DNA from: Coffea arabica
Taxonomy: Eukaryota > Streptophyta > Magnoliopsida > Gentianales > Rubiaceae
Direction: 5' to 3'
Length of the DNA stretch: 64,000 nt
NCBI RefSeq assembly: GCF_036785885.1
Contig: NC_092323.1
Coordinates: forward strand, 10,734,501-10,798,500
The notes under the pieces are model-generated. The model was not told the DNA's origin. It did no database searches and saw only the letters and a list, made by a program, of their open reading frames with translations. The position numbers and the translations under genes are program-made. Positions 8,786 to 64,000 of this stretch are shown here, piece by piece; the first letter of the stretch is position 1, and every line of letters begins with the position of its first letter.

Positions 8786-10444
8786 CTACAATCTGCTCAC
8801 CTTTGAACCACCAAGAGCTTTAGCCATTTCTCTGAGCACAAACTTCTGAATTTTCCCAGTTGATGTCTTGGGTAGCTCTTGTCGAAACACCACCGTCTTA
8901 GGCACCATGTACTTTGGCAATTTACCCCTACAAAACTCGATCACATCCTTCTCAGCCGGCCTCTGCTTCACATCAGCTTTCAAGCTCACAAATGCACAAG
9001 GCGTCTCACCCCAGAATTCATCAGGCCTCGCCACCACAGCTGCCTCGTTCACTGCCGGGTGCATGTACAACGCAGATTCCACCTCAACGCTGCTCAGATT
9101 TTCACCCCCACTTATGATCACGTCCTTGGATCTGTCCTTAATCTCCAAGTATCCATCAGGGTGCATCACAGCAACATCTCCAGTATAAAACCAACCGTTT
9201 TCCCTCATGCTTTTTGATGTCCCTTCAGGGTCTTTGAGGTATCCAAGCATAATACACCCTCCTCTCAATACAAGTTCACCAAGAGTTGAACCGTCCCTTT
9301 TCACACTCACCCCTGTTTCAGGCTCAATCACATCTATTTCCGCCATCCCGAGTGTCCTCACGCCCTGTCTTGCCTTCAACCTCGCCCGCTCTGTCGCTGG
9401 CAATCTGTTCCATTTATTCTTCCAGGTGCAAGAAACCACGAGACCTCCTGTCTCGGTCAATCCATATCCATGACTGACCTTAAATCCCAGTGCTTCAGTC
9501 CTCAACAGGACTGCAGCTGGAGGTGGAGCTCCTGCTGTCAGTATTTCAACCGGGTTTTTGAGTGGCTCTCCCATGGGAAAATTCGATATCATGTTCAGCA
9601 CCACGGGCGCACCGCACAAATGCGTGACATTGTGCTGGCGAATTGCTGAGTAAACCGCCGGTGCATCGAATTTTCGTAGACAAATGTTGGTTCCACCTAC
9701 GGCGGCCATGCCCCAGGGGTAGCTCCAGCCGTTGGCGTGGAACATGGGTAGTGTCCACAAGTAGACGGGCTCTTTTGGGACCGACCATTCTATCAAAGAA
9801 TCCACGGTAATGATGAATATTCCGCGGTGGCAGTGAACCACTCCTTTAGGGGAAGAGGTGGTTCCTGAGGTGTAATTGAGTATAAGGGGGTCAAAATCAG
9901 ATTTAGGACGAACCCATTTGAACCCCGGATCTCCTTTCTGTACCAGAGACTCGTAAGTGCAATAAAAATCAGGAAAATTTGATGGAGGGATGGATGGGGA
10001 TGCATCATCCGTGATGACGACTAACAGGGGGCGTTGAGAATTTGGTGGAAATAAAGATAAGGCTTCCAAGACTAAAGAAGTTGACTGGTAATCGACAAGG
10101 ATAAGCTTGGATTCGCTATGGTGCAGGAGGATTGAAACCGTGCGGGCATCGAGACGAAGGTTGATCGTATTGAGAACAGCTCCGGCCATGGGGACAGCAA
10201 AGTGGGCTTCATACATGGCTGGAATATTTGGTGCCACAACGGACACCACTTGGCCTCTTTTGATGCCCAAAGAAACTATGGAAGAAGCCACCCGGAGGCA
10301 TCTGACATGGGTATCTGACCATGTGTACGTTGCGTTGTTGTAGACAACTGAAGGGCAATCGCCATAGACTGTGGCTGCTCTTTCAAGGAAACCAAGAGGT
10401 GTTAGAGGAGCTGAGTTTGCCGGTCCAGGCTTCAGCTGATCCAT
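8786..10444 (-). CDS. Peroxisomal acyl-activating enzyme (acyl-CoA ligase, AAE1/BZO1/CNL clade)
   Basis: One exon, 552 residues, starting MDQLKPGPANSAPLTPL. It activates a carboxylic acid to an acyl-adenylate and then to the CoA thioester. Motifs in order: P-loop YTSGTTSSPKG at 191-201, YGLTE at 327-331, YTGD at 420-423, hinge DRSKD at 437-441, and the PKTSTGK lysine at 531. The C-terminal SRL is a canonical PTS1 peroxisome signal. The length (about 550) and motif wording fit the plant clade that includes Arabidopsis AAE1, benzoate-CoA ligase BZO1 and petunia cinnamate-CoA ligase. Which acid it uses cannot be read from sequence. It has an inverted intact paralogue about 9 kb away and a broken one between. 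Intronless structure is shared with the paralogue. Confidence 0.93.
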   Translation of the reverse strand: MDQLKPGPANSAPLTPLGFLERAATVYGDCPSVVYNNATYTWSDTHVRCLRVASSIVSLGIKRGQVVSVVAPNIPAMYEAHFAVPMAGAVLNTINLRLDARTVSILLHHSESKLILVDYQSTSLVLEALSLFPPNSQRPLLVVITDDASPSIPPSNFPDFYCTYESLVQKGDPGFKWVRPKSDFDPLILNYTSGTTSSPKGVVHCHRGIFIITVDSLIEWSVPKEPVYLWTLPMFHANGWSYPWGMAAVGGTNICLRKFDAPAVYSAIRQHNVTHLCGAPVVLNMISNFPMGEPLKNPVEILTAGAPPPAAVLLRTEALGFKVSHGYGLTETGGLVVSCTWKNKWNRLPATERARLKARQGVRTLGMAEIDVIEPETGVSVKRDGSTLGELVLRGGCIMLGYLKDPEGTSKSMRENGWFYTGDVAVMHPDGYLEIKDRSKDVIISGGENLSSVEVESALYMHPAVNEAAVVARPDEFWGETPCAFVSLKADVKQRPAEKDVIEFCRGKLPKYMVPKTVVFRQELPKTSTGKIQKFVLREMAKALGGSKVSRL

Positions 10445-19543: not shown

Positions 19544-21235
19544 ATGGATAAATTCAAACCCCGTCTTGCAAATTCATCTCCATTAACCCCATTAACATTT
19601 TTGGAAAGAGCTGCCATTGTTTATGGAGACTGTACTTCCATAGTTCACAACACCACCACCACCTACACCTGGTCAGAAACCTATACTCGCTGCCTCAAAA
19701 TCGCTTCCTCCATTTTATCCCTCGGCATCAAAAGGGGCGATGTAGTTTCCGTGATCGCCCCGAATATCCCAGCTATGTACGAGCTCCAATTCGCTGTCCC
19801 AATGGCGGGTGCTGTCCTCAACAACATCAACACCCGGTTGGACGCGAGAACCATTTCTGTTCTCCTCCAACACTGCGAATCAAAGCTCGTGTTCGTGGAC
19901 TACTATCTTAGATCAATAGTCTTGGATGCAGTTTCCATGTTCCCACAACATTTGACGGCCCCAGTGCTCGTCCTCATTGAGGATGATGATGCTGATATGG
20001 AAGTGGAACCCTCATTGTCAAGAATTCATGGTTTTCTTGATGCTAGTTATGAGGGTTTGGTGAAGAAATCAAATATTGACGAGTTTGAGTGGGTCAGACC
20101 TAATAATGAGTGGGATCCAATGACGCTGAATTACACCTCTGGCACGACCTCATCGCCCAAAGGTGTGGTGCATTCGCATAGATCCCTCTTCATCATCACT
20201 TTCGATTCTCTAGTAAATTGGTCAGTCCCAAAACAACCCATTTATTTATGGACTCTTCCTATGTTCCACTCCAACGGGTGGAGCTACACTTGGGGGATGG
20301 CCGCCGTGGGCGGCACAAATATTTGCCTTCGAAGAGTCGACGCTGGAATAATATACGCATGCGTAGGATTGCACGATGTCACACACATGTGTGGTGCACC
20401 CGTGGTGCTGAACATGATAGCAAATTCTTCCCATGCAAAGTCGCTCAAAAACCCCGTGCATTTCCTCACTGGCGGTGCACCTCCACCTGCCACCGTGGTT
20501 CTTCGGACGGAGTCTTTAGGATTTGTTGTTAGTCATGGATATGGATTGACTGAGGTGGCCGGAGTAGTTGTTTCTTGTGCATGGAAGCCGATGTGGAATG
20601 CATTGCCGGCTACCGAGAGGGCTAAGTTGAAAGCAAGGCAAGGAGTGAGGACTCTGGGGATGACTGAGGTGGACGTGGTGGAGCCGGAGACAGGCGTTAG
20701 TGTGAAGAAAGATGGGTCGAGCATGGGTGAAATTGTACTTAGAGGTGGATGTTTAATGCTGGGGTATCTCAAAAACCCTGAGGGGACCTCAAGATGCTTG
20801 AGGGAAAATGGTTGGCTTTATACAGGAGATGTTGGGGTGATGCATCCAGATGGGTACTTAGAAATTAAGGACAGATCAAAGGATATTATCATCAGCGGTG
20901 GGGAGAATGTGAGCAGTGTTGAAGTTGAGTCTGTGTTGTATACCAATCCTGTGGTGAATGAGGCTGCTGTCGTGGCTAAGCCTGATGATTATTGGGGTGA
21001 AACGCCATGTGCTTTTGTGAGTTTGAAGGAGAATGTAAGGAAAAAGCCCAGAGAAAAGGATATTATTGAGTTTTGTAGAGCAAGGTTACCTCATTATATG
21101 GTGCCTAAGAATGTGGTTTTCATGGATGAGCTTCCTAAGACTGCTACAGGAAAGATTCAGAAGTTCAGCCTCAGAGATGTTGCCAAGAAAATTGGGATGT
21201 TGCCACAAGCTGCAGCAGTAATAAGTCGGATGTAA
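19544..21235 (+). CDS. Peroxisomal acyl-activating enzyme, paralogue of 8786-10444
   Basis: One exon, 563 residues, starting MDKFKPRLANSSPLTPLTF, which aligns with the start of its paralogue. The frame stays open 26 codons upstream, but that stretch (MRRREALAERLERKF...) has no counterpart and lies at the predicted transcription start. All AMP-binding motifs are present: YTSGTTSSPKG, YGLTE, YTGD, DRSKD and PKTATGK. The protein ends SRM, a PTS1 tripeptide that fits the plant [SA][RK][LM] pattern, so a peroxisomal site is likely. An acidic insert (DDDADMEVEPSL) before the P-loop is longer than in the paralogue. It likely ligates CoA to a small aromatic, branched or short-chain acid; substrate unknown. 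The two genes and the remnant between them form a small tandem/inverted cluster. Confidence 0.92.
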   Translation: MDKFKPRLANSSPLTPLTFLERAAIVYGDCTSIVHNTTTTYTWSETYTRCLKIASSILSLGIKRGDVVSVIAPNIPAMYELQFAVPMAGAVLNNINTRLDARTISVLLQHCESKLVFVDYYLRSIVLDAVSMFPQHLTAPVLVLIEDDDADMEVEPSLSRIHGFLDASYEGLVKKSNIDEFEWVRPNNEWDPMTLNYTSGTTSSPKGVVHSHRSLFIITFDSLVNWSVPKQPIYLWTLPMFHSNGWSYTWGMAAVGGTNICLRRVDAGIIYACVGLHDVTHMCGAPVVLNMIANSSHAKSLKNPVHFLTGGAPPPATVVLRTESLGFVVSHGYGLTEVAGVVVSCAWKPMWNALPATERAKLKARQGVRTLGMTEVDVVEPETGVSVKKDGSSMGEIVLRGGCLMLGYLKNPEGTSRCLRENGWLYTGDVGVMHPDGYLEIKDRSKDIIISGGENVSSVEVESVLYTNPVVNEAAVVAKPDDYWGETPCAFVSLKENVRKKPREKDIIEFCRARLPHYMVPKNVVFMDELPKTATGKIQKFSLRDVAKKIGMLPQAAAVISRM

Positions 21236-43057: not shown

Positions 43058-46000
43058 CTAATAAGATAATGGAACGAGAGGTAGTTCCTTAGAAAATGGT
43101 AAAGGAATAGCAACCTCTAAATATCTGCTCTTTGTCTGCTCAAAAAGGCTTATAGCATTGTCAAGTGCGTGGAGAGCCATCTTTTTAACCTATTGCAGGC
43201 AAAGAATGATTTAGTTCAAAGGTATTTCTGAATTAACCATATAGGATGTTACATAAAGCTGAAAAGGCAATCATCTCAACATCAACGATGATAAACTATG
43301 GCAATTACTTTCAAACTGCAACATGATGGTGGCAGGTATAGTTCATCAAATAGTTCATGCTGTAAAAGAACTAGAAAAAAGTCATAACAGAAAAGTAATG
43401 CTTCCTTCCGAAAATTTAAAAGTTCACTTCAGCACTAATATTTTCAGCTACTATACCTCTAACTTGTCCTCCTTGGCCTGATGTTTTTGTGGAAGAGTCC
43501 GAAATTCCTCAGACAAGCGAATACACTCAGAAATATTTTCAGGAGAAACAAAGTCGAGAGCAACCTTAATGCAAGACTGCAGAGTTGAATTGAGAAGATT
43601 AAAAGCTAGAAACAAAAAGAGAAAACGATAACATCCACCAGTAATGGAAAAAAAAAACTATTGGTATCCTGTATAGCATAACAGAAAGCAAATTTAGCAG
43701 ACCACGAAAACATATCTAGGGATAAGGAGGAAGAAATCTGTAATATGAGCATATTTTATAACAACTCAAGTACGGGAGACTAACAAGCAATCCTGAGTCC
43801 TACCGCAGCGTTTATACCCCTGTTATGAAAGAACCATCAAAAGTTCTGCAAATGACAAGGAACATCATACATCTGAATCATGCTAGTTACTACCACTCTG
43901 TCTTAGATGAAGGTGATATTTTTTAAGAAAAATACTGGTAAATCCCCTAAAAATGAAAGTTCTGTAAGAAATTTGTCTAGAAATGAAGAAGTAAAGTGTG
44001 ACAAATTTTGCAACACCCCTTCATGATGTTAAAGCAAGAACTAAAAACCAAGATCTCGATAAATTAAGATACAGGAATATGATCACCAGTTTCATTGTAG
44101 CAAATCAGCATAAAGAGTAACCAAACATGTCTCATAATTGCTAGTACATCCTGTAGGTGTCAAAAAGCTTTAGTATGAAACACGAGGGTTTTTGAGGAGC
44201 TGAGTATTGCACTCAGAACCAGGTGTTATCCCAAAGGATTTAAGAACCATTGGAATGTCGTTGAAGTTGTTTTCCCAGTATAAATTCCAGGTAAAAATGA
44301 AAAAGATGGCACAAAAAATTCCTTCTACAATCTGCCCAAGATTTAAATAAGCACACCTGAGCGCAACCATCTGCTTAAGATAGCCATGTACAGATGCTAA
44401 AAGAGATAGATTCCAGGTGCATTAAAACCATAGTTACACACTTAAAGGTTTGAAAGAGAGTTGAAAATATAAACATGCAAGGTGCTACATACCTTAAGAT
44501 TCCTAACTTGATGAGGACACCCTGCCGGCACAAAAACTGCATCACCGAGTTTTTGAACAAATGTCCAGGGTTCAACTCCTATATTGACCACATAAGAATA
44601 TTACATAAACCTTTTGGAAAAAAATTGAAAAGATACACAAGATTTGTTAAAGCTTTAAAAGATATTTAACCAACCAAACTCTTCCTTCAGCTTCTTCTTA
44701 TGATACTCAGTCAAGTAGAAAGCTTGGTCATGAATTGGGTGAACAATCTGGAGAATGAAACACATTGGATCATGATAATTAGTTGGTCCAGAGTTTGACA
44801 GTAACAAGAAGTCAATTGCTAACTCTCAGAGAGAGATGGGATCAAAATGTATCTATAGAGAGCTTAAATATAACAAACACATATGTAACCATATCAAGAT
44901 GCAGCACTTCCACTAAACATGGCCCCCCCAAAAACATTAAGCCCATGGTGACAGAACAGAACCAAGAAGATAATTAAACAAGCACAAGTTCAGGTTCAAT
45001 GAAAGGCAACACTAAGCAAACGTTAACACTGAAAATCATCTTCAAGTGATCCAAATAGGATTCAATAACATCTGTTAAAGGTGCTTAATTTACCCATCGA
45101 GACCAGATGCAACACTGACTTTCATGTCATCTAGTGAACATTTTCTAACATTTTCAGCACACGTTTATCAATCTCTAAATGCACAGGGAATGCCATTAAA
45201 AGACCACCTGTGTAACACTTCTTTTTGGCATGTCTTGGGACCTCATCGCAGAAACTTGTAAAAATAAAATTAATGATAAAATTACCTTTTCCACGGGACG
45301 GCAGTAAATATGCCTGAATTCCCTATGGTGCTTTCTAAGATATTCCTCTAGCTTGGGAACATCCTGCCGCCTGAATATATCCCAGATTGCCCCACCCTCG
45401 ACTTCAAAAAAACCATTCAGCTTGTTTTTGGTACCTATTTCAAACACATATACAGATTACATTTCCTGATGTACGTTCTTTTTTAGAAACACATACCCAG
45501 ATGGAACAATATCAAGCTCACCTACACTACTATTTTCCTTGTTCAAGTCTGTACTTCTAATATGTAATTCAGAGGCATTTTCAGTCAATGAACTTCTCAA
45601 TTTGCTATTCTGCCCATCACTAGACTGACTAGCTTCATCATTTCTTCTACCTGGCACACTCATTTGAGTTCCCAGCAACCCACCAATGTGAGAATTCTCA
45701 GAGGGCAATCCAAACTCTGTGACTGGTTTGGTCAAAATACCATCTTGCAATGTTTCAGCTGCAATGGAGGCACCACCTCCACTCCCTTTTCCAGCATTAG
45801 TTGGCAAATGATCAATACTCCCACTTTGAAGGTTCAAAGAATCAGAAATTTTAGGAGAAGCATGACTAACTTCAGCAGTTAATGCACTTCCAGATGGTTC
45901 CATCGTCGCAGGCACCTTCTCCACAGCCTCTTTATCACTTGGATCAGATGTCCCAAAGAGTTCTTTTTGGTCTTGGGCATCATGCTTTTGCTTGAGCTCT

Positions 46001-49000
46001 TTTATTTTAGCAAGCTGCTCTGGTTCAACAGCCACTTCAGCAGTATGCATCAAGATATTCACCTGGTTCATATAAACAGAGTTAACATAGTTTATAAAGA
46101 ATAGCATCTATAGGTCCATATTCAAAACAGATTACCATCATATCAAGACAAACAACAGGAGAAAACAGTATTTTCTGTCACCCAAAAAAAAAAAAGAAAC
46201 CAAAAGCAAACCAGTAATTTCTCGTAGATTAATTTTTTGAAAGCTGGGCATTGAAGTTTGACTCATTGACTACATCAAGATACTTCAGAACAAGAGTTGC
46301 ACAATTTCCCTTTTTCTAGTTTTTTGGGGAATGACCTAGACTGATACTCACAAGAAGCAAATACCTCGATTATCTCAGTGATAAGCCCCAAAATGAGCAA
46401 GTATGTTTCTTCTTAAACTTTATTATCAATGGTTGTTTCTAATAATGAACTCATTTCCTGGATGCTACCATGCCACTAGACGAACATGTAGAAATTATCA
46501 ATAATACAAAGAGAACAATTTCTTTCTCCTAAAGAGATATTTCTGTATCTCGCAGAAGTTAAGACACATTCACTTAACCTTTAGCTCAATCAAGGAATAT
46601 GAAATAAAATGGATTAAGATTACTATGGAAGCCTACAGGTAATACAATTTTTCATTCAACTACAAACTTGACGGGTCATCCAAACAATCAGAAATTGTTC
46701 AAAGAATCAGAAATTTTAGGAGAAGCATGACTAACTTCAGCAGTTAATGCACTTCCAGATGGTTCCATCGTCGCAGGCACCTTCTCCACAGCCTCTTTAT
46801 CACTTGGATCAGATGTCCCAAAGAGTTCTTTTTGGTCTTGGGCATCATGCTTTTGCTTGAGCTCTTTTATTTTAGCAAGCTGCTCTGGTTCAACAGCCAC
46901 TTCAGCAGTATGCATCAAGATATTCACCTGGTTCATATAAACAGAGTTAACATAGTTTATAAAGAATAGCATCTATAGGTCCATATTCAAAACAGATTAC
47001 CATCATATCAAGACAAACAACAGGAGAAAACAGTATTTTCTGTCACCCAAAAAAAAAAAAGAAACCAAAAGCAAACCAGTAATTTCTCGTAGATTAATTT
47101 TTTGAAAGCTGGGCATTGAAGTTTGACTCATTGACTACATCAAGATACTTCAGAACAAGAGTTGCACAATTTCCCTTTTTCTAGTTTTTTGGGGAATGAC
47201 CTAGACTGATACTCACAAGAAGCAAATACCTCGATTATCTCAGTGATAAGCCCCAAAATGAGCAAGTATGTTTCTTCTTAAACTTTATTATCAATGGTTG
47301 TTTCTAATAATGAACTCATTTCCTGGATGCTACCATGCCACTAGACGAACATGTAGAAATTATCAATAATACAAAGAGAACTTTTTTTCCATAAAGGGAT
47401 ACTACAAATTTAGATTACACGTCTTTAACTTCTTTGACCCATATGTAGAAACTATCAATAATACAAAGAGAACAATTTCTTTCTCCTAAAGAGATATTTC
47501 TGTATCTCGCAGAAGTTAAGACACATTCACTTAACCTTTAGCTCAATCAAGGAATATGAAATAAAATGGATTAAGATTACTATGGAAGCCTACAGGTAAT
47601 ACAATTTTTCATTCAACTACAAACTTGACGGGTCATCCAAACAATCATCTGGAAAATAGTGAAAGAAAGCTGGGTCCATTAATCTATGTTCCCCAAAAAA
47701 ATGTAGATAAACATCTCCATTCATGGTCAAATTAAATTGCACCAAACCAATACTGAAATCATGCAGGAACCTATCAATCTACATAAAAAGGGACAGTCTT
47801 TCCACGATGTCCCGCTGAGGAGCACTAAGTGAATTATCACTTTCAAACTGAATTATATTTATTCCTAATAGTTATATCAGATCATCGCAATTTCTCAAAA
47901 GGCTAGCGCTGAAAAGCTTTAATAGGGAATCACAAATCTTTCCATCCACACAAAATCCTGGTCTTGCTATCCTCAACTTTTGCAGCACATCAATGCATAA
48001 GGCTTCCATAAGAACCATGTCCCTTAAATTATCGAAAGCAGCCACAAAGAACATCAAGGAAAAACAAAATCATGGCCTTGCAACCATACTGCTCACTTAG
48101 TTTGAACCCTATGTCTCAAATATAGTGGGAAAAGGGGGAAAAAAGGTGTGCATTTATGCTGATAGAAAATCCTTAAAGCTTTGGTAGAAGCATATAATTT
48201 CGCATAAGGGAGCATCTTCCGTGATCAAGAGATCTTTGAAGATTAACTGTTAGACCCATTATTTTTAGAAACAGAACCACCAATGCATAAATAGTTATAC
48301 TATATATACCGCATCTGACATGTCACAGTGAAGCTTTGTCACTGAATCTCCCCGTCCAAGATCTTCTGCAAACCCATATGCTATATAAGTCTTAGGCCCC
48401 ATGTCTGGCTTCAGCACTGTAGTTGGCACTTTTGCCGCCAAATTAAGAATTCCTGAATTTGGATGTGTATATTCTTTAAAAGGCAAGGCACTAATAAATT
48501 CTACACAATGGCGAGGCAGTCTCTCCCCAAAGTAACTTGATGACGGCCAATCCTTGAGTTTTAACATTTCAGGCCAGTGTTTTCCATCTGCCCGACCATC
48601 AGTGTATCCCTTAAAAAACTGGTGTATATTTATATCAACCTGCACACATAGAGGACAGCTTAGAAAACTCAGAGAGCAAGAGATACACACCAAAAATTTG
48701 AAGTATGAAATAATTTTCCACAAGAAATGGGAAAACATGCTACATCTGCGAATGAAGCAAGATACACCATCATATATGTCAATTTTATATTCTAATGCTA
48801 GAAGTGAATAATTTCTTTTTCTAAGAAATTGAGAACATCTTTAATGATCATAAAACCATTCAAACACATGCATGGTCACTTGCAAACCCACTGCACCATC
48901 GTGGCCTGAACAACCTATTCAGAGTAGTACCTTTCAAACACAAAAAGATCAACATTTTATCAAACGCCAAGATTATATAAAAACATAATTTACTCTCAAA

Positions 49001-52000
49001 CTCACCAACAAACGAGCATTAAGAGTGGTATTGCAATTACAGTGTTTCTCAACATTCCACATGCCAAGACATTTAGTGCTGCAATTTTTAGATCGACTCC
49101 CTGTAAGACATTTTGGAAAGTGGGGCTGGCAATGGAACGCAATATTTCTACCATGCATAAGCAAATAGAAAAGGAAAGTGCTGTGCCACAAATCAGGACA
49201 AAAAGAAACCAAATGCTGTAAATACAGTTTTGTTTACAGCAGAAAATTGTTGGTAAAATCAGGTGATATCGTAACTATTTATCAACACCAAACAGAAACA
49301 TGAACCTGCTTTTTTCATCAATAGACCTAGGTAACAGTGATCAGATTTGCTGCATAAGTAAAAGCAGCCACCTAATTGAACAATTCCCCTAGTACTTTTG
49401 TGAGCCATCCAACTAGAAACTAATATACACCTCTTCAATATGTATGTTTAATATAATTTATACAGAAATCACTTTCAAGGATGTCTACTGCAACAAAAAG
49501 GAGAGCACTTATTATGATGAATTCTACATTAAGAAACGCTGAAGCTAATTTGCATCCAAAAAGTAAGACAAACATGTTGACAGTCATATGCTGAAAATAG
49601 AGTAATAAAACAAATTTAAAAAAAAAAAAAAGCTTTGCCCAAAGTTACTCTCACCCCAAGTTGCAAAAAGATTAAAAAACATTACTATAAGGACCACAGA
49701 ATAAAACCAAAAATCACAGAAAACTACAACAGTTATATCTGGCCAGATGCACGTCTGCCTGCTGCGTGTATTTACTTTGTGGCTGATTTGCATCTTTATT
49801 GATCCTGATGGTTCAAAGCCAAGGTAACAATAGAAAAGCATGCTGAAAACTACTTACTTCACATCCATGCAGCATGTCACGGTGAGCAAAGTAATCCAAA
49901 TCTCAAGATTAAGTAATCCAAATCTCAAAATACCAAAGTACCAAAATGAAAATTTTAACAGCTATATGTCATGAACCAAAGAAAAAGAACCATATATCAG
50001 CCAATTCATGTGGCACATCTCTTGATCCGTATTTAGGTTCAAGAATGTCTGCGACTCCTAAAACGCAGATAAGATTTAGACCTTTCTTTATGGAAGTGAT
50101 CTTGTAGTTGGGAAAAAGATCTTACATTTTCTAGAATTTAAGAGAGATGCTCCAGCAGCTTAAAGAATTGAAGAGAAGCTAAGAACGTAATTACCAACAG
50201 CTAAAGAGTAAACCAAGATAGTTAGCATCCTTCCAAAAATAGCCACACAATTTGCCAACATTTACCATCAACTACTACTACTCCATAAATGCTAACAGCA
50301 CGTGTTAGGATAACTGCCATTCAATGGAGAATCAGATAAATTGGAAAAGCACATTGATTGTCACATAAGAAGACTGCAAAAGAGAGAAGAAAATCAGACA
50401 GGAAAGAATGAAAAAAATGATAGACAGAAAGGACTTGCCTCGCACCAATCAAGGCAATCAATTGCTGTCACCAACAAATCCGACGATCCCTTTTTAACTA
50501 GGATCTCACGTACTGCACGCCACATGACCATTGGCTCCCAGCTTAACCCAGATGTTAGTTCAAGAACATTGCCAACGATGACTGGTTCTCCCCTAATCCA
50601 ATGTTTCTGGAAGTGCTCCAAGTCCCCTTGCTGGAGGTCAGTTGCAGAGGGACAATACAAGTAATTGTCACCAGAATTCTTTCTTGAAGCAGCTTTCTTC
50701 AGTTGTTTATCTCCAATATCAGAATCATCACTGTATTCGAAACAGGTACACTGCTTGGAAGTTTCACTACAGTTGCCAAGTCTATGGCTCTCAATTAAAT
50801 TCTCGACTTTCTTTCTGAAATCCAACACATCTTGTTCAGCATATATGCACCTGAGCTGCAGTTGCTCATACCCACAACCACCCCTTTCTTTAGGAGGGCA
50901 AGGAATTTCACCAGTTTCTTTTGCTTTCCAGTCAGGAAGGGTACTTTCCATCCCAGGAACTGATTCACTACATGAACCTGAAAAGCTTTCTTGTTTTGGA
51001 GGCACCTGCAGTTCTCCATGCAAGTATCCTTTCCCCGGGTCAGCGTACTCAATAACAACTTCCTTACTACCTCCTTGTAAGCAGCCTTCACGTATTTCTC
51101 GACAGCAAGTCAGACAGAGATCATAAGAACACTTTGGACAGCTTCTGTGGAAATCAACTATAGAGGTACCGCAACAATCACTGCATAAGCATGTGTAAGT
51201 TCTCAAACCTCCAAAATAGGATCAACTTAGTTACTAAGAAAATGACTAATCAATAAAGAAGTGGCCTACCAATAAAGACGCTCATCCGCGAAACATCTAA
51301 TCCTCTCTACTCCTATCTCTGACGATAATATTCCTGTATAACCAACATTTATCACATGTAGAAGTACCAAAATACTGACAGAAAGAAGTATACATGCAGT
51401 TTTATTAGAAATACATTAGGTAAACCATCTTGACATCTTCATATAATAAGCAGTCTGTTCAATCTTTTCTCACCCACCTCCCTCTCATGTTTGTCCACTT
51501 CGGTAGCAAAACACAAGCCCTTTCGCAATAACTTATAACCAAGAGAACCGAAATGGAGAAGAGTTCGAGAAGAAGAAAAAGCATTAGTGAGATGATGGCT
51601 AATAAGCATAGAGCAAACTCCCCACCCACCCCTAAAACCCCCCAACCCCCCAGAACACAAGCCAAAAAAAAAGGAAAAAGGAAACCAATAAAAATGCAAA
51701 AATACAAAAGCACCTGCAAGCTCAAATCCATCTAAAATATTTAAGTGATACCTCGAATTTTAGCTTCTGTCTCCTTTTCCACCATTTGGTCATGATCAAA
51801 TTGTTTGAGAATAGGGGCAACCATGCGAACAAGATACTTAAAGTGATGTATCACTTCAGCTTCATTTTGTGGAGTCCCAGAATATACAGTTTGCTGCAAT
51901 AATGAACACAACCAATAATAAATTACCACCGTCTACCCTGGAAGCAAGAAAGCAACCCAATGCAGCAAAAACTTACATTCTGTATCTCATCTCTTCGTAG

Positions 52001-55000
52001 ACAAGCTTTGCAGTTGCAGTTTCCTCGGCAATATGGGCATGCTTCTGCTATTGCTTCCTCTGAAAGCTGAGGGTACCTGTATTTCAGTCAAATATAGTGG
52101 TAAATATTGCAATTAGGACAAGCTAAGCACTCTATTAGCATCTACTCAAGCCAGCACACATAAGAGCTGAAAAGCACCATATAACTGATAAAGAAGGTTG
52201 TTGACAAGAAAATACAGTAATGGCACAAGCTTAACACAAACATGTACTACTGCCATGCCGCCACCAGCACACTAAGATCAGCCAGAGCCAGTAGACTAGA
52301 ACATCCAAAGTAGCTCAAATTAATAAGAGTGCACATCTCTATGATAAGCTATACTAATGAAAAAGACACACCACAGATACACAGAATTGGTGATTGCACT
52401 CAATTCCCTATAAAATGCTGATGCACTAGGTAAAAACCTAAAATATAACGCAATCAGATAAAATTTGAGAACCAAAAGACAATATCTACTTGAAAACCAT
52501 TCATTATTTTGCATGCTAAACAGTGGAACCCAACCTAGAACCTCATATGTTAGCACACCATCAATGACTCATACACTTCCTTATTCAGCCAAGAGACGCT
52601 GATCAACAGATAACATAATGCACTTGGCCTGTACTCCAGAAATACAAGGCGCACATACCACAGTATACATGATTCTCGCATAATCAATTAGAACAGCCAA
52701 AAGCTTATTTTCCATCTTGCAGTTAACATGGTGCAATAATTAATAAATATGGCAGAACAAGCATGTAATTTTTGGGATCTATTAATATCACTCAAATGTG
52801 AAATTGGAATATCTTCCAGATACACTTGCCATCTTTTGATACAGAGACAACAATAGCGCCTATTATAGCCATTCAATTGCCGTTCCTTGCGACACCTCAC
52901 AACCCTCTTATTGCTGTACATGCATTGGTGGCACATTTGGCAATCATCTTCAGGATCCTGTTCATTCAACTCTTAGTATGACTGTGATTCATCCCAATAG
53001 ATTACATACTATTCCAACTATATAATCTTAAGAAGCCAGCAGACAACTTACATCAGTACTGAAGTGCTTTCTTCTAAGATCAACCTTGGGCTTATGGCAG
53101 TTCTTCTTCTCCCGAGAACTCCTTTCTCTAATTAAGTGTGCTCCATCATCTGATTCTGTACGATCATCGTCTTCTTCCTCAATTCCTCCCACCTTTTCCA
53201 TTTTTGGACCCTTCCTCCTCCTCCTCTCTTCAGTTGAATCCGTTTTCAAAGTTTTCTTGACTTTCTTTATTGCCTTAAACACAGATTTAACATTTTCATC
53301 GCCAATTTTATCCTTATCGCTGGATCTTTCCTCTTTCTCATCTTTAAACATGTTACTCAACCCCCCTTTCTTCTCCCGTGACTTCTTCTGTCCTCTCTTC
53401 AATAAAGTTGCAGGCATGAAATCCTTTTTTGCAAATTTTATTAAACAAGCATCATCCATCTCCTCAGAACCATCAACATTATCACCTTCATTGTCACATC
53501 CAGCTACTTCCCCTTTCTCAACCTTGTTACTCTTACCCTGTAACCAATTCTCCTTAGAGCCATCGACATCAATACCATCATCACCATCTCCCTCTGCTTT
53601 TACTCTCCCAACCTCCTTAGCGTTCACCCACAGCTGAGATTTCTTCTTACCACGTTCATCCTTACCATCTTTCATGATATCTTCAAAACCACCATCATCA
53701 AAATTATCCTCTTCAGATTTCATATCTTTCATCGCCACTTTCAGTGTCTTGGTCCTGGAACCCTTTTTCAACATTTTCACCACACTATCTCCATTTTTCT
53801 TCTTCGAATTCTCACCATCTTCCTCCTTGTCCTCATGACTCATTGCCCTCCGATCATTTTTCATCTTTGTTCGCAGCTCAAGTTGACCACACCTTTGACC
53901 ACCTTTACGCCTGCTACCCTTCCCTTCTCCATCAACAATCTGGTCATTCCTCTCTACTTTCCTCTTTTTTTTCCCCCATTTATCCCCGCCACTACTTTCA
54001 GCAGTAATTAGCTCTCTACTCCTCTCCTCCTCTTCCTCCTCAGTATCTTCTTCGCTGCTCTGAACTTCCTTCTTCTTACCCAACTCGAGCTCCCTATGCC
54101 CCTTATCAATTTTTTCCACCTTATATTTCTGCCCCTCCTCCTCATCACTCATATCACTCGAATCACTGTCCTTTACACCATCCTGAAATTCTCCACTCCT
54201 TCTACCAATTTTAATCACATTACGCCTTCCTACCTCTTCATCATCACTCCGATAACTTCTCACAGCTTTCTTCTCATTTTCCAACTTAACTCCACCACTT
54301 TCTGTAGCACTACTTATTTCTTTGAACCAGTACTCTTCATCATCGCTACTCTCTTCATTTCTTTCAATCTCCTTGGCATGCTTCCTCCTCAACTCACTTT
54401 TACCACCCCTTTTAGAACTTTGAACCACATTATCCCTAGCACTCCCTTTAGCACCTTTTGCAACATCACCTCTTTCCTCATCACTCTCCTCCAACCAACC
54501 AACTTGCTTCTTTTTAATCAGAGAATCAATTTTATCACCCACCTTATCACCTCTTTCCTCATCACTCTCCTCCAACCAACCAACTTGCTTCTTTTTCATC
54601 AGAGAATCAATTTTATCACCCACCTTAGATCTCTTAACAGCATTTCCCCTGTGGCTCTCGAATTTTCCCCCCTTCTCATCACTCCTTCTACCAGTAATTT
54701 TCACAACATTCATCCTCTCATCCTCCTCTGTCTCTTCGCTATCTTCCTCCTCCTCCGCCTCCACTCTCATCCTCTTACTCCTCGGCTTTTTCTTTGGCAA
54801 CACCTCTTCTGTCGAATTAGACTCGCCGCCCCCACCTTTGCTCCTCTTATCTTTGCTACCACCGCTAGAAAGCCCTAACTTCTTCGACTTATTTGCAACA
54901 AAACCACCAGCCTTACCACTACCACTAGCCTTAGATTTCTCCGAACGCCTTTTCTCGGACCTAGAATTTCTCGACGGAGCAGAAGATTTCCTTTTCAAAT

Positions 55001-55187
55001 TTTTTCCGACGATTTGGAGGTAATGCTTTTCGCAGTAGGGTTTTCCATGGATCCTCCAGCTATGGCACCGCCACGTCTTACCGTCAGACCTTCTACAGCG
55101 CAGCTCATCCGGCGCCTCCCTAAAATCGGCGGCCTCTTCTTCCGAGGGCGAGTCCACCATTCTCCGCCGTTGTCCACCCGTTGACAC
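43058..55187 (-). CDS. WRC–RING-like–JmjC histone H3K9 demethylase (KDM3 / JMJ25-IBM1 type), with a frame break in exon 3
   Basis: Thirteen exons (minus): 55187-53052, 52957-52830, 52077-51977, 51893-51752, 51333-51270, 51180-50439, 48639-48310, 46062-45522, 45434-45286, 44747-44675, 44578-44493, 43576-43457, 43189-43058; about 1580 residues expected. An in-frame ATG at 55160 is an alternative start. Order: WRC domain (about residues 28-62, [13 protein letters not shown]...YCEKHY); a long Lys/Glu/Ser/Asp-rich nuclear region to about 700; a RING-like Cys cluster ([26 protein letters not shown]); a second Cys cluster ([16 protein letters not shown]); then the JmjC domain. Iron ligands are seen: KLHCDMSD in exon 7 and CPHQVRN in exon 11. 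Plant relatives (IBM1) remove H3K9 methylation from genes. Exon 3 has GGAAAAC where the frame needs one A fewer, so the frame shifts between CPYCRG and NCNCKACLR; every other junction fits. Introns 2 and 6 start with GC. Confidence 0.88.
45832..46690. repeat. Tandem duplication copy A (exon 8 5' part plus intron 7 DNA)
   Basis: 859 bp, near-identical to 46697-47647. It contains the first part of the real exon 8 (from its acceptor at 46062 down to 45832) and 0.6 kb of intron 7. Six bases (GAAATT) separate the two copies. Confidence 0.95.
46688..46927 (-). pseudogene. Duplicated 5' part of JmjC exon 8
   Basis: Translates as [16 protein letters not shown]... through ISDSLN, identical to the true exon 8 start, then NF and stop. 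The AG acceptor is intact but no donor follows. If used it would end the protein after the first iron-ligand motif and before the second, so a splice into it would give a catalytically dead short form. Confidence 0.85.
46697..47647. repeat. Tandem duplication copy B inside JmjC intron 7
   Basis: 951 bp. It repeats 45832-46690 with an offset of 865 up to the indel, plus 92 extra bases at about 47376-47467. It carries a second copy of the exon 8 acceptor (exon edge at 46927) and 77 codons of exon 8, after which the frame ends within two codons beyond the repeat edge. Confidence 0.95.
54467..54628 (-). repeat. Two tandem 81-bp coding repeats in JmjC exon 1
   Basis: Two nearly identical 27-residue units, KVGDKIDSL(M/I)[10 protein letters not shown] followed by SDEERGD, sit side by side in the charged region. 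The high DNA identity points to recent slippage or unequal exchange. The unit is acidic/basic and looks disordered. Confidence 0.92.
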
Positions 55188-56320: not shown

Positions 56321-58000
56321 ACTGTTAACACACTATAGGGGAAGCCCATGCTAAGTGCAGGAGATTTAACCTATGTGATAAAATATTTATTCAAATAAAT
56401 TTATTAAAAAAAATAGTTGAATTATAATTGCATCGTAATTGGTTTAATTGAATCAGTTGAAGTGCATGGAATTATAAGTAAATTGGCCAAATCAACAAAC
56501 TATAAAGGAAAATGAATTTATAAGTTTAAAAAAAGAGAGAGATTGTAGTAGATAATCGCACCATACCATAACAATAATAGCAAAAACATCATTACCATTG
56601 TTAATATACCATTATAACAAAATCATAGCCATATCAAATCAACAATTAACATGTATCAACTATAATGTCAGATTTATATCCCACCTTAGACATGAAATTG
56701 CAATCAATAGATATTCTTTCATCGCAGTTTAACCTCCTGCTGCCACAAACATTAGATTTTGGAAATATAGTTAGAAAATGTGAGAAGGTTCCTATGGATA
56801 TTCATATGCATGTATCATATATTCCATAACGAAATTTTCATATTCAATCAGTGGCTATTGAGAAGGTATTGCAGTAGAAAATTCACAATTTTTACTGTAT
56901 CAGATAAACATTCAAAATTCCAGAAAGAAAGAAAGTAAATGATCATACCTATCCAAACATCGACAACAAAAGATTGAACACAAACACTTGAAGCAACATT
57001 TTTCAGTATTAAAAGTCTTCATTATTATCAAGTTGAAAAGCACTATAATCATGTTCATTATTAAAGTGCATCCTGAACCAATTATCTTTAGTATTAAGAC
57101 CCTCTATTATTTCAAGTGGTCTAAACACCACTTTAAAACTTGATAATCATATGGAATATAAGCCAATCGCAAGTGGGAGGACACGATAGTCAAACCCAAC
57201 TCAACTATACATTATAATGTTGCAGATTTGACACAATCACTTGCATTTGATTTTTTTTCCTACCTAAATTATCCCTAAAGATGGCATATAAATTTTTTTT
57301 CCAACAATCATCTACAAACTGCTTTATATATATATACATGATATCCTCATAAATGCTAATAATTACTTTTTAAAAAATGAGCTTCGTTAATATTAATTCT
57401 GGATATAAAATTGACAAGTCTTGAGCAGTTTTATTTGTAAATTAATTTAGTTCTTTTTCTTTTCTTCCAAAAGCATGAGACTTCTAGTTCAAATATAGTA
57501 TTATAATCCTATTTATAATTAACAGATATCCTCACAAATGTTAATAATTACTTTCTAAAATTTAGCTCCAATTACGACATAATTGTAATAAATGTAAATG
57601 ATTGTCTTATCTTTTGAAAGTTTTAGTACTTTACTTACCTTCTAAAATTGAGCTCCGACATAATTGTAATAAATGTAATTGATTGTCTTATCTTTTGAAA
57701 GATTTAGTACTTTACTTGCCTTCCAAAACGAAAAAATGAAAAGCTACTTTCGCCTACAATGGTTTATGATTCTTGTAGTTTTATTATATTTTTTTAACGG
57801 ATTTTTCCTAACGGACATTTATTATTACACATAGATTTCACCAAATCTATTATACATATGCACATATATAAGAAAAATAGGAGGTTTAGTGTTTTGTTTC
57901 TCATCTTGTCACGTGGCTTTCTGGTTATTTGACAAGTGGCATGACTTCAATATATTTTCTCTTGCAAATTGCTTTGGCTCCTTCCCATGTGTTTAGACCA
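56321..58000. other. Intergenic with local repeats
   Basis: No gene. A word block around CAGTTTTATTTGTAAA(A/T)TAA and TCTAGTTCAAA-like sequence at 57426-57495 repeats 56076-56145. Two tandem units of about 85 bp lie at 57553-57723. Confidence 0.5.
57553..57723 (+). repeat. Two tandem units of about 85 bp
   Basis: Both units carry GACATAATTGTAATAAATGT, then GATTGTCTTATCTTTTGAAA, then TTTAGTACTTTACTT and CCTTC. They differ by a few bases. Non-coding. Confidence 0.85.
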
Positions 58001-63609: not shown

Positions 63610-64000
63610 GCATTAAACCAGTACAAGTTCCGGGGTCTGCAGAAGATTCAAGGGAAGGCTGGGAAAGCATTAACACAGGAAATCGTCTTCAACCATACTT
63701 TCCAAGTGATGAAAATAGGTACAACAACAAATCATATTAATGGGGCTTAATTTGCCCATAAGGATCACATGCTACATTAACCTTCATGTAAATGAGCTAA
63801 CATTCACTAACATTTTTAACAAGAGCTCAGAAAAATGATGCTGAAATCAGGGCACATCTTTATACATCTCTAGAACTAAAAATGCAATTACCTTTTCCAC
63901 TGGACAGCAGTGAATATGCTTGATGATTGTACCACCATCCACTTCCGCGACACCACTGAGATCGTTCATAGCACCTAACTTCAACACGTACAAAGATCAT
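63610..64000 (-). pseudogene. Partial second JmjC gene copy (exon 9 equivalent), cut by the window edge
   Basis: The minus-strand exon 63974-63892 reads GAMNDLSGVAEVDGGTI...KHIHCCPVEK, matching exon 9 of the main JmjC gene ([18 protein letters not shown]...[10 protein letters not shown]). It lacks 22 codons in the middle, in frame, and keeps both splice sites. The following intron DNA (about 63610-63890) also matches the main gene's intron 9, so this is a DNA-level copy, not a retrocopy. The lost block lies in the JmjC fold (between WDIF and HREFR), so function is doubtful. Whether more of the gene lies beyond 64000 is unknown. Confidence 0.8.

Follow-up and report, generated by a model that had tools for sequence, protein, structure and literature searches.

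A KDM3-like JmjC gene of Coffea arabica carries a recent tandem duplication of about 0.95 kb that straddles the boundary between its intron 7 and exon 8. The gene lies on the minus strand of the 64,000-nucleotide stretch of chromosome 7 that we analysed (C14:10734501-10798500, hereafter the window; contig C14 is NC_092323.1). A near-identical counterpart contig, C13, served as the reference for the homoeolog comparison and holds the segment in single copy. The gene on C14 presents two identical acceptors for exon 8, A and B, of which A lies upstream on the gene strand. We think it probable that both are used, that messages spliced to acceptor A are decayed, and that the resulting partial loss of output is masked by the C13 copy. 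If acceptor A is used, Arabica coffee, or at least the sequenced line, would harbour on one homoeolog a naturally weakened KDM3-like H3K9-demethylase gene. Such a case would bear on how dosage and redundancy act among the chromatin regulators of a young polyploid.

Structure of the duplication

Copies A and B stand head to tail on the gene strand with six filler bases between them (Table 1). In the whole five-sequence alignment they show no substitution in 857 gap-free columns, while the single copy on C13 differs from both at 12 of these columns. Positions 45832-46131 and 46697-46996 are identical at 300 of 300 bases, 46479-46690 and 47436-47647 match at 98%, and the poly-T tract has equal length in A and B and is two T shorter on C13. 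An earlier reading of the window made from its letters alone (the sequence-only reading) had described this near-unchanged repeat correctly and had overlooked a 92-bp loss in copy B. The 92-bp unit is present in copy A and in the single C13 copy (8928756-8929706), which is of the same long type as copy A. The lone 43-base repeat left in copy B is a hybrid, starting like the unit at 47344 and ending like the unit at 47436. Copy A is therefore the ancestral form and copy B the one that lost the unit. The loss, which may have come with the duplication or later, would fit a deletion between the imperfect repeats.

Apart from this duplication, a repeat scan of the window (at least 80 bp, within 5 kb) returned nothing but an 81-bp repeat within exon 1, to which Tandem Repeats Finder added a 1.9-copy array of 81 bp at 57575-57728. 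Seven 10-kb pieces of C13, scanned singly, yielded one repeat of 81 bp and one of 87 bp, neither of them at the duplication site. The locus thus combines what marks a recent tandem duplication, namely near-identical head-to-tail copies, a junction between them, and a single copy in the related C13 sequence. The exon 1 repeat is a separate feature of both homoeologs, an in-frame tandem repeat at 54465-54627 that encodes 27 residues per unit and is 98-99% identical. The intergenic array, with units of 81 to 87 bp and about two copies, is likewise found at 57575-57728 of the window and at its C13 counterpart.

Table 1. Features of the KDM3-like gene and its duplication (window coordinates)
Feature	Position	Strand	Remarks
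KDM3-like JmjC gene	43058..55160	-	13 predicted coding exons; model read from sequence
Exon 1	55160-53052	-	predicted
Exon 7	48639-48310	-	predicted
Exon 8	46062-45522	-	predicted
Exon 13	starts 43189	-	predicted; in-frame TAG at 43060-43058
Copy A (951 bp)	46697..47647	-	3' part of intron 7, acceptor A and first 231 bases of exon 8
Copy B (859 bp)	45832..46690	-	copy A segment minus 92 bp; runs on into rest of exon 8
Filler AATTTC, six bases	46691..46696	-	junction between copies
Older imperfect repeat, 92-bp spacing	47344..47478	-	also on C13; single unit in copy B (46479-46521)
Acceptor A boundary	46927..46928	-	first exonic base 46927
Acceptor B boundary	46062..46063	-	first exonic base 46062; normal frame
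In-frame TGA on acceptor-A route	46688..46690	-	1284 residues, ending DSLNNF
Candidate donor GAA/GTTAGT, exon 8A	46735..46736	-	192-nt in-frame exon, new intron to acceptor B
Candidate donor GAG/GTATTT, copy-B intron	46364..46365	-	563-nt stop-bearing extra exon

Origin and age

On the gene strand the junction reads TTTGAAC/AATTTC/TGATTGTTTGG. The filler and the next five bases together form an 11-mer of exon 8, AATTTCTGATT, which occurs at 46696, 46715 and 45850. The exon 8 copy of the 11-mer lies just upstream of the exon-8 breakpoint, and its last five bases (TGATT) are also native to intron 7 at the intronic breakpoint. When the 120 bases around the exon-8 breakpoint were shuffled base by base 200,000 times, 11 of the shuffles contained the 11-mer. 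It had been noticed before that six junction bases (GAAATT on the plus strand) recur beside the breakpoint; the actual match extends to 11 bases, and with its filler the junction looks like the product of error-prone end joining, as was then proposed. Probably, breaks occurred in exon 8 and in intron 7, and the two were joined by way of a short templated filler. Templated filler is reported as a mark of polymerase theta. Error-prone break repair can yield small tandem duplications, according to a model based on insertions that arose naturally in humans and in plants (PMC8355091). The coffee duplication resembles these in its head-to-tail copy and scarred junction, but it is a single event, about 0.95 kb long, that occurred in nature. 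In our judgement the duplication is genuine, young and specific to one homoeolog, and of a mutational kind already known.

We take the assembly to be that of the di-haploid line ET-39, a HiFi assembly of 1,198 Mb in 132 scaffolds with 22 pseudochromosomes (PMC11018527). C13 and C14 are then the two chromosomes 7 and, the line being di-haploid, homoeologs rather than haplotypes. An exon on C1 is identical at 134 of 134 positions to chain A of PDB 2efj, the coffee 3,7-dimethylxanthine methyltransferase. JmjC/KDM3 matches in the genome, which include at least seven pairs of KDM3-like loci, mostly fall in neighbouring contig pairs, and on these grounds the view that C13 and C14 carry alleles was dropped. 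The concern, raised with the first description, that the repeat might be a haplotype artefact is thereby largely answered, as the related contig is a homoeolog and holds one copy. Tentatively, by length, C14 (50.5 Mb, against 43.5 Mb for Chr07E of Kona Typica) is the eugenioides and C13 (40.5 Mb, near Chr07C at 40.0 Mb) the canephora chromosome 7. A general rule that odd-numbered contigs are canephora was abandoned, as chr5, chr8 and chr10 stand in the opposite order relative to Kona Typica.

Of the 6499 intron bases of the gene that could be aligned, 75 (1.15%) differ between C13 and C14. At this rate 9.9 changes would be expected per 857 bases if the duplication were as old as the homoeolog split, and the probability of seeing none is 5e-5. 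The 95% upper limit on the age of the duplication is 30% of the age of that split, barring gene conversion. Polyploidy in Coffea arabica has been dated to 350,000-610,000 years (PMC11018527); the duplication may predate or postdate it.

Gene model and predicted transcripts

The predicted frame from 55160 to 43115 comprises 1553 codons without a stop on both C14 and C13, and the two coding sequences differ at 55 of 4659 bases (dN 0.0086, dS 0.025). Position 43115 was considered as a further donor and is probably not one, since an in-frame stop follows it, which leaves 12 predicted donors. Pfam places a WRC domain at residues 17-56, JmjC at 1401-1497, and zf-4CXXC_R1 at 707-779 with 22.8 bits, 0.1 bit above the cut-off of 22.7. 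Human KDM3B aligns in two blocks that flank an insert coded by exon 8, its HLD and PHQV motifs aligning with HCD and PHQV of the coffee protein. A JmjC domain with H-x-D...H ligands and a preceding zinc finger, as found here, identifies the product as a KDM3/JHDM2-type JmjC protein with predicted demethylase activity. The WRC domain has been reported in five KDM3 proteins, three of them from tomato (PMC3567966). Judged by title, none of the three papers listed for JmjC histone demethylases and Coffea arabica deals with this gene. The donors of introns 2 and 6 (window 52829 and 50438) appear to be GC instead of GT.

A second intact acceptor had been claimed at 46927, and indeed A, B and C13 agree at all of 40 intronic and 20 exonic bases. 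Counted from exon 7, intron 7 is 1382 bases long if it ends at acceptor A, which is exactly its C13 length, and 2247 if it ends at acceptor B. Splicing to acceptor B would give the normal protein. Splicing to acceptor A would add 77 codons of exon 8 and two filler codons (NF) before the TGA at the junction, and the predicted product would end inside the exon-8 insert. It would lack the second half of the JmjC fold and the whole second KDM3B block, including the PHQV histidine. The prediction of a truncated, dead product that stops short of the second iron-ligand histidine therefore stands.

What lies beyond the stop had been overlooked in that prediction. If nothing else is spliced, five predicted exon junctions follow it, the first of them 1166 nt away. 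A stop codon upstream of exon junctions is the usual setting for nonsense-mediated decay, so that the message is more likely to be lost than to yield a stable short protein. A polyadenylated short form is conceivable, given an AATAAA at 46424, beyond the stop. Overall, the C14 homoeolog most likely loses part of its output, a loss that the intact C13 copy would mask.

Several considerations weigh against this explanation. The absence of divergence between A and B could reflect gene conversion, which would lower the apparent age of the duplication, and the single-copy comparison is with a homoeolog, from the other subgenome. Exon 8A comes without a normal donor and would be disfavoured under exon definition, and acceptor B alone might be used. 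Additionally, a library of human reporters whose identical acceptors were spaced by 2-59 nt is reported to have shown no preference by order (PMC6783452), so first-come use of acceptor A is not assumed. These reporters share with the coffee gene the presence of identical acceptors in cis, but they were assayed in human cells at that short spacing, whereas the coffee acceptors lie 865 bases apart in a plant gene.

Alternative explanations

Were acceptor B always used, the duplication would be neutral and would merely have made intron 7 longer by 865 bases. Exon 8 is complete after acceptor B, with its frame open, and the donors that exon 8A offers ahead of its stop are not strong, both of which suit such an outcome. 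We nevertheless consider it unlikely, though not remote. Against it, acceptor A retains the full native intron, at the C13 length and with the same acceptor bases.

A different fate, overlooked when truncation was rightly predicted, is the splicing of exon 8A to exon 8B. Exon 7 would be joined to 8A, and a donor at 46736 or 46781 would then be joined to acceptor B, creating a new intron from the leftover exon piece and the copy-B intron and a protein in which 64 or 49 residues are repeated. Both donors are in frame and precede the stop, and their predicted products of 1617 and 1602 codons contain no stops. The geometry is that of a potato RdRp gene, in which a boundary-crossing tandem duplication is described as having built a new intron out of an exonic remnant of the upstream copy together with intron sequence of the downstream one (PMC4974935). 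In both plants the duplication spans an intron/exon boundary, the downstream copy supplies a ready acceptor, and a leftover exonic piece with possible donors precedes that acceptor. Potato RdRp is the closest precedent, and the coffee locus has the same anatomy with splicing that is predicted only.

The candidate donors speak against this outcome. Scored with a donor matrix and ranked against the 12 predicted donors of the gene, the donor at 46736 (score 1.4) exceeds one of them and that at 46781 exceeds none; among 272 exonic GTs of the gene, 25 score at least as high as 46736. The top-scoring GT between the two acceptors is instead the one at 46365 (3.49, above 7 of the 12), use of which would produce the stop-bearing extra exon listed in Table 1. 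The potato donor, GTAAG, is unlike those of coffee, and in potato splicing is documented by 106 RNA reads, with ten differences between the copies and occurrence in two species (PMC4974935). The coffee case, by comparison, is seen in one genome, with weak donors, no differences between the copies and a stop ending the leftover piece. Furthermore, the repeated protein would carry VNILMHT a second time after the HCD motif, which may spoil the fold. That exon 8A and the copy-B intron are already spliced, at least partly, as an in-frame exon and intron, an intron at its birth, is in our view improbable. If true, it would be among the youngest intron gains known, with zero copy divergence, and the other homoeolog, which shares the nucleus and keeps the ancestral structure, would serve as an internal control and as a buffer. 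Repetition of the potato geometry would also speak for boundary-crossing duplications as a recurrent source of introns in plants.

An assembly artefact is very unlikely: the copies are near perfect and the evidence for them is assembled sequence, but the line is di-haploid, its DNA was sheared to 20 kb for HiFi sequencing (PMC11018527) against an array of 1.8 kb, and neither the filler bases nor the 92-bp deletion would be expected from a mis-join.

Hardly any weight can be given to control of the kind known from Arabidopsis IBM1, which the sequence-only reading had put forward and in which chromatin on intron 7 would set the ratio of a long active to a short inactive form. In Arabidopsis, intron 7 of IBM1 is methylated and acts as a heterochromatin sensor (PMC11265718), and proximal polyadenylation within it shortens the transcript (PMC8116057). 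The coffee gene is likewise KDM3-type, with an intron in its JmjC region and a possible non-functional short form; 27 of 65 IBM1 orthologs are reported to have CHG-methylated introns (PMC11265718), and the AATAAA follows the stop. That motif is expected by chance in AT-rich DNA, however, and the coffee gene has a duplicated acceptor where IBM1 has a methylated intronic element and proximal polyadenylation. Searches with copy B, 47648-48309 and 47300-47480 gave matches to this locus, to its homoeolog and to an old fragment of the same gene, and to nothing else. The parts of intron 7 so covered showed no repeated element, in a search that skips very common words and compared no organelle genome. 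With at least seven pairs of KDM3-like loci in the genome, IBM1 orthology is uncertain for this gene, and the accounts of KDM3 domain make-up in PMC3567966, PMC12465334, PMC9091307 and PMC9029850 do not settle it.

Neighbouring features

The region of exons 7 to 9 has been copied at least once before. About 18 kb upstream, on both homoeologs, lies a broken old copy that corresponds to the last part of exon 7 through exon 9, from window 63886-64000 through C14:10800635 (about window coordinate 66135), with its C13 counterpart near 8945025-8947099. It is about 72% identical to the gene and contains frame breaks and stops, on which grounds its interpretation as a tandem paralogue was rejected.

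Elsewhere in the window, about 1.17 kb at 39499-40666 on C14 is absent from the contiguous point C13 8923601 and is rich in TTTTTC and in C-rich or G-rich simple repeats. In comparison with C13, window positions 8841-9880 and 20129-21177 give an inverted cross-match of about 74% between the two places, which suggests an inverted pair of related genes.

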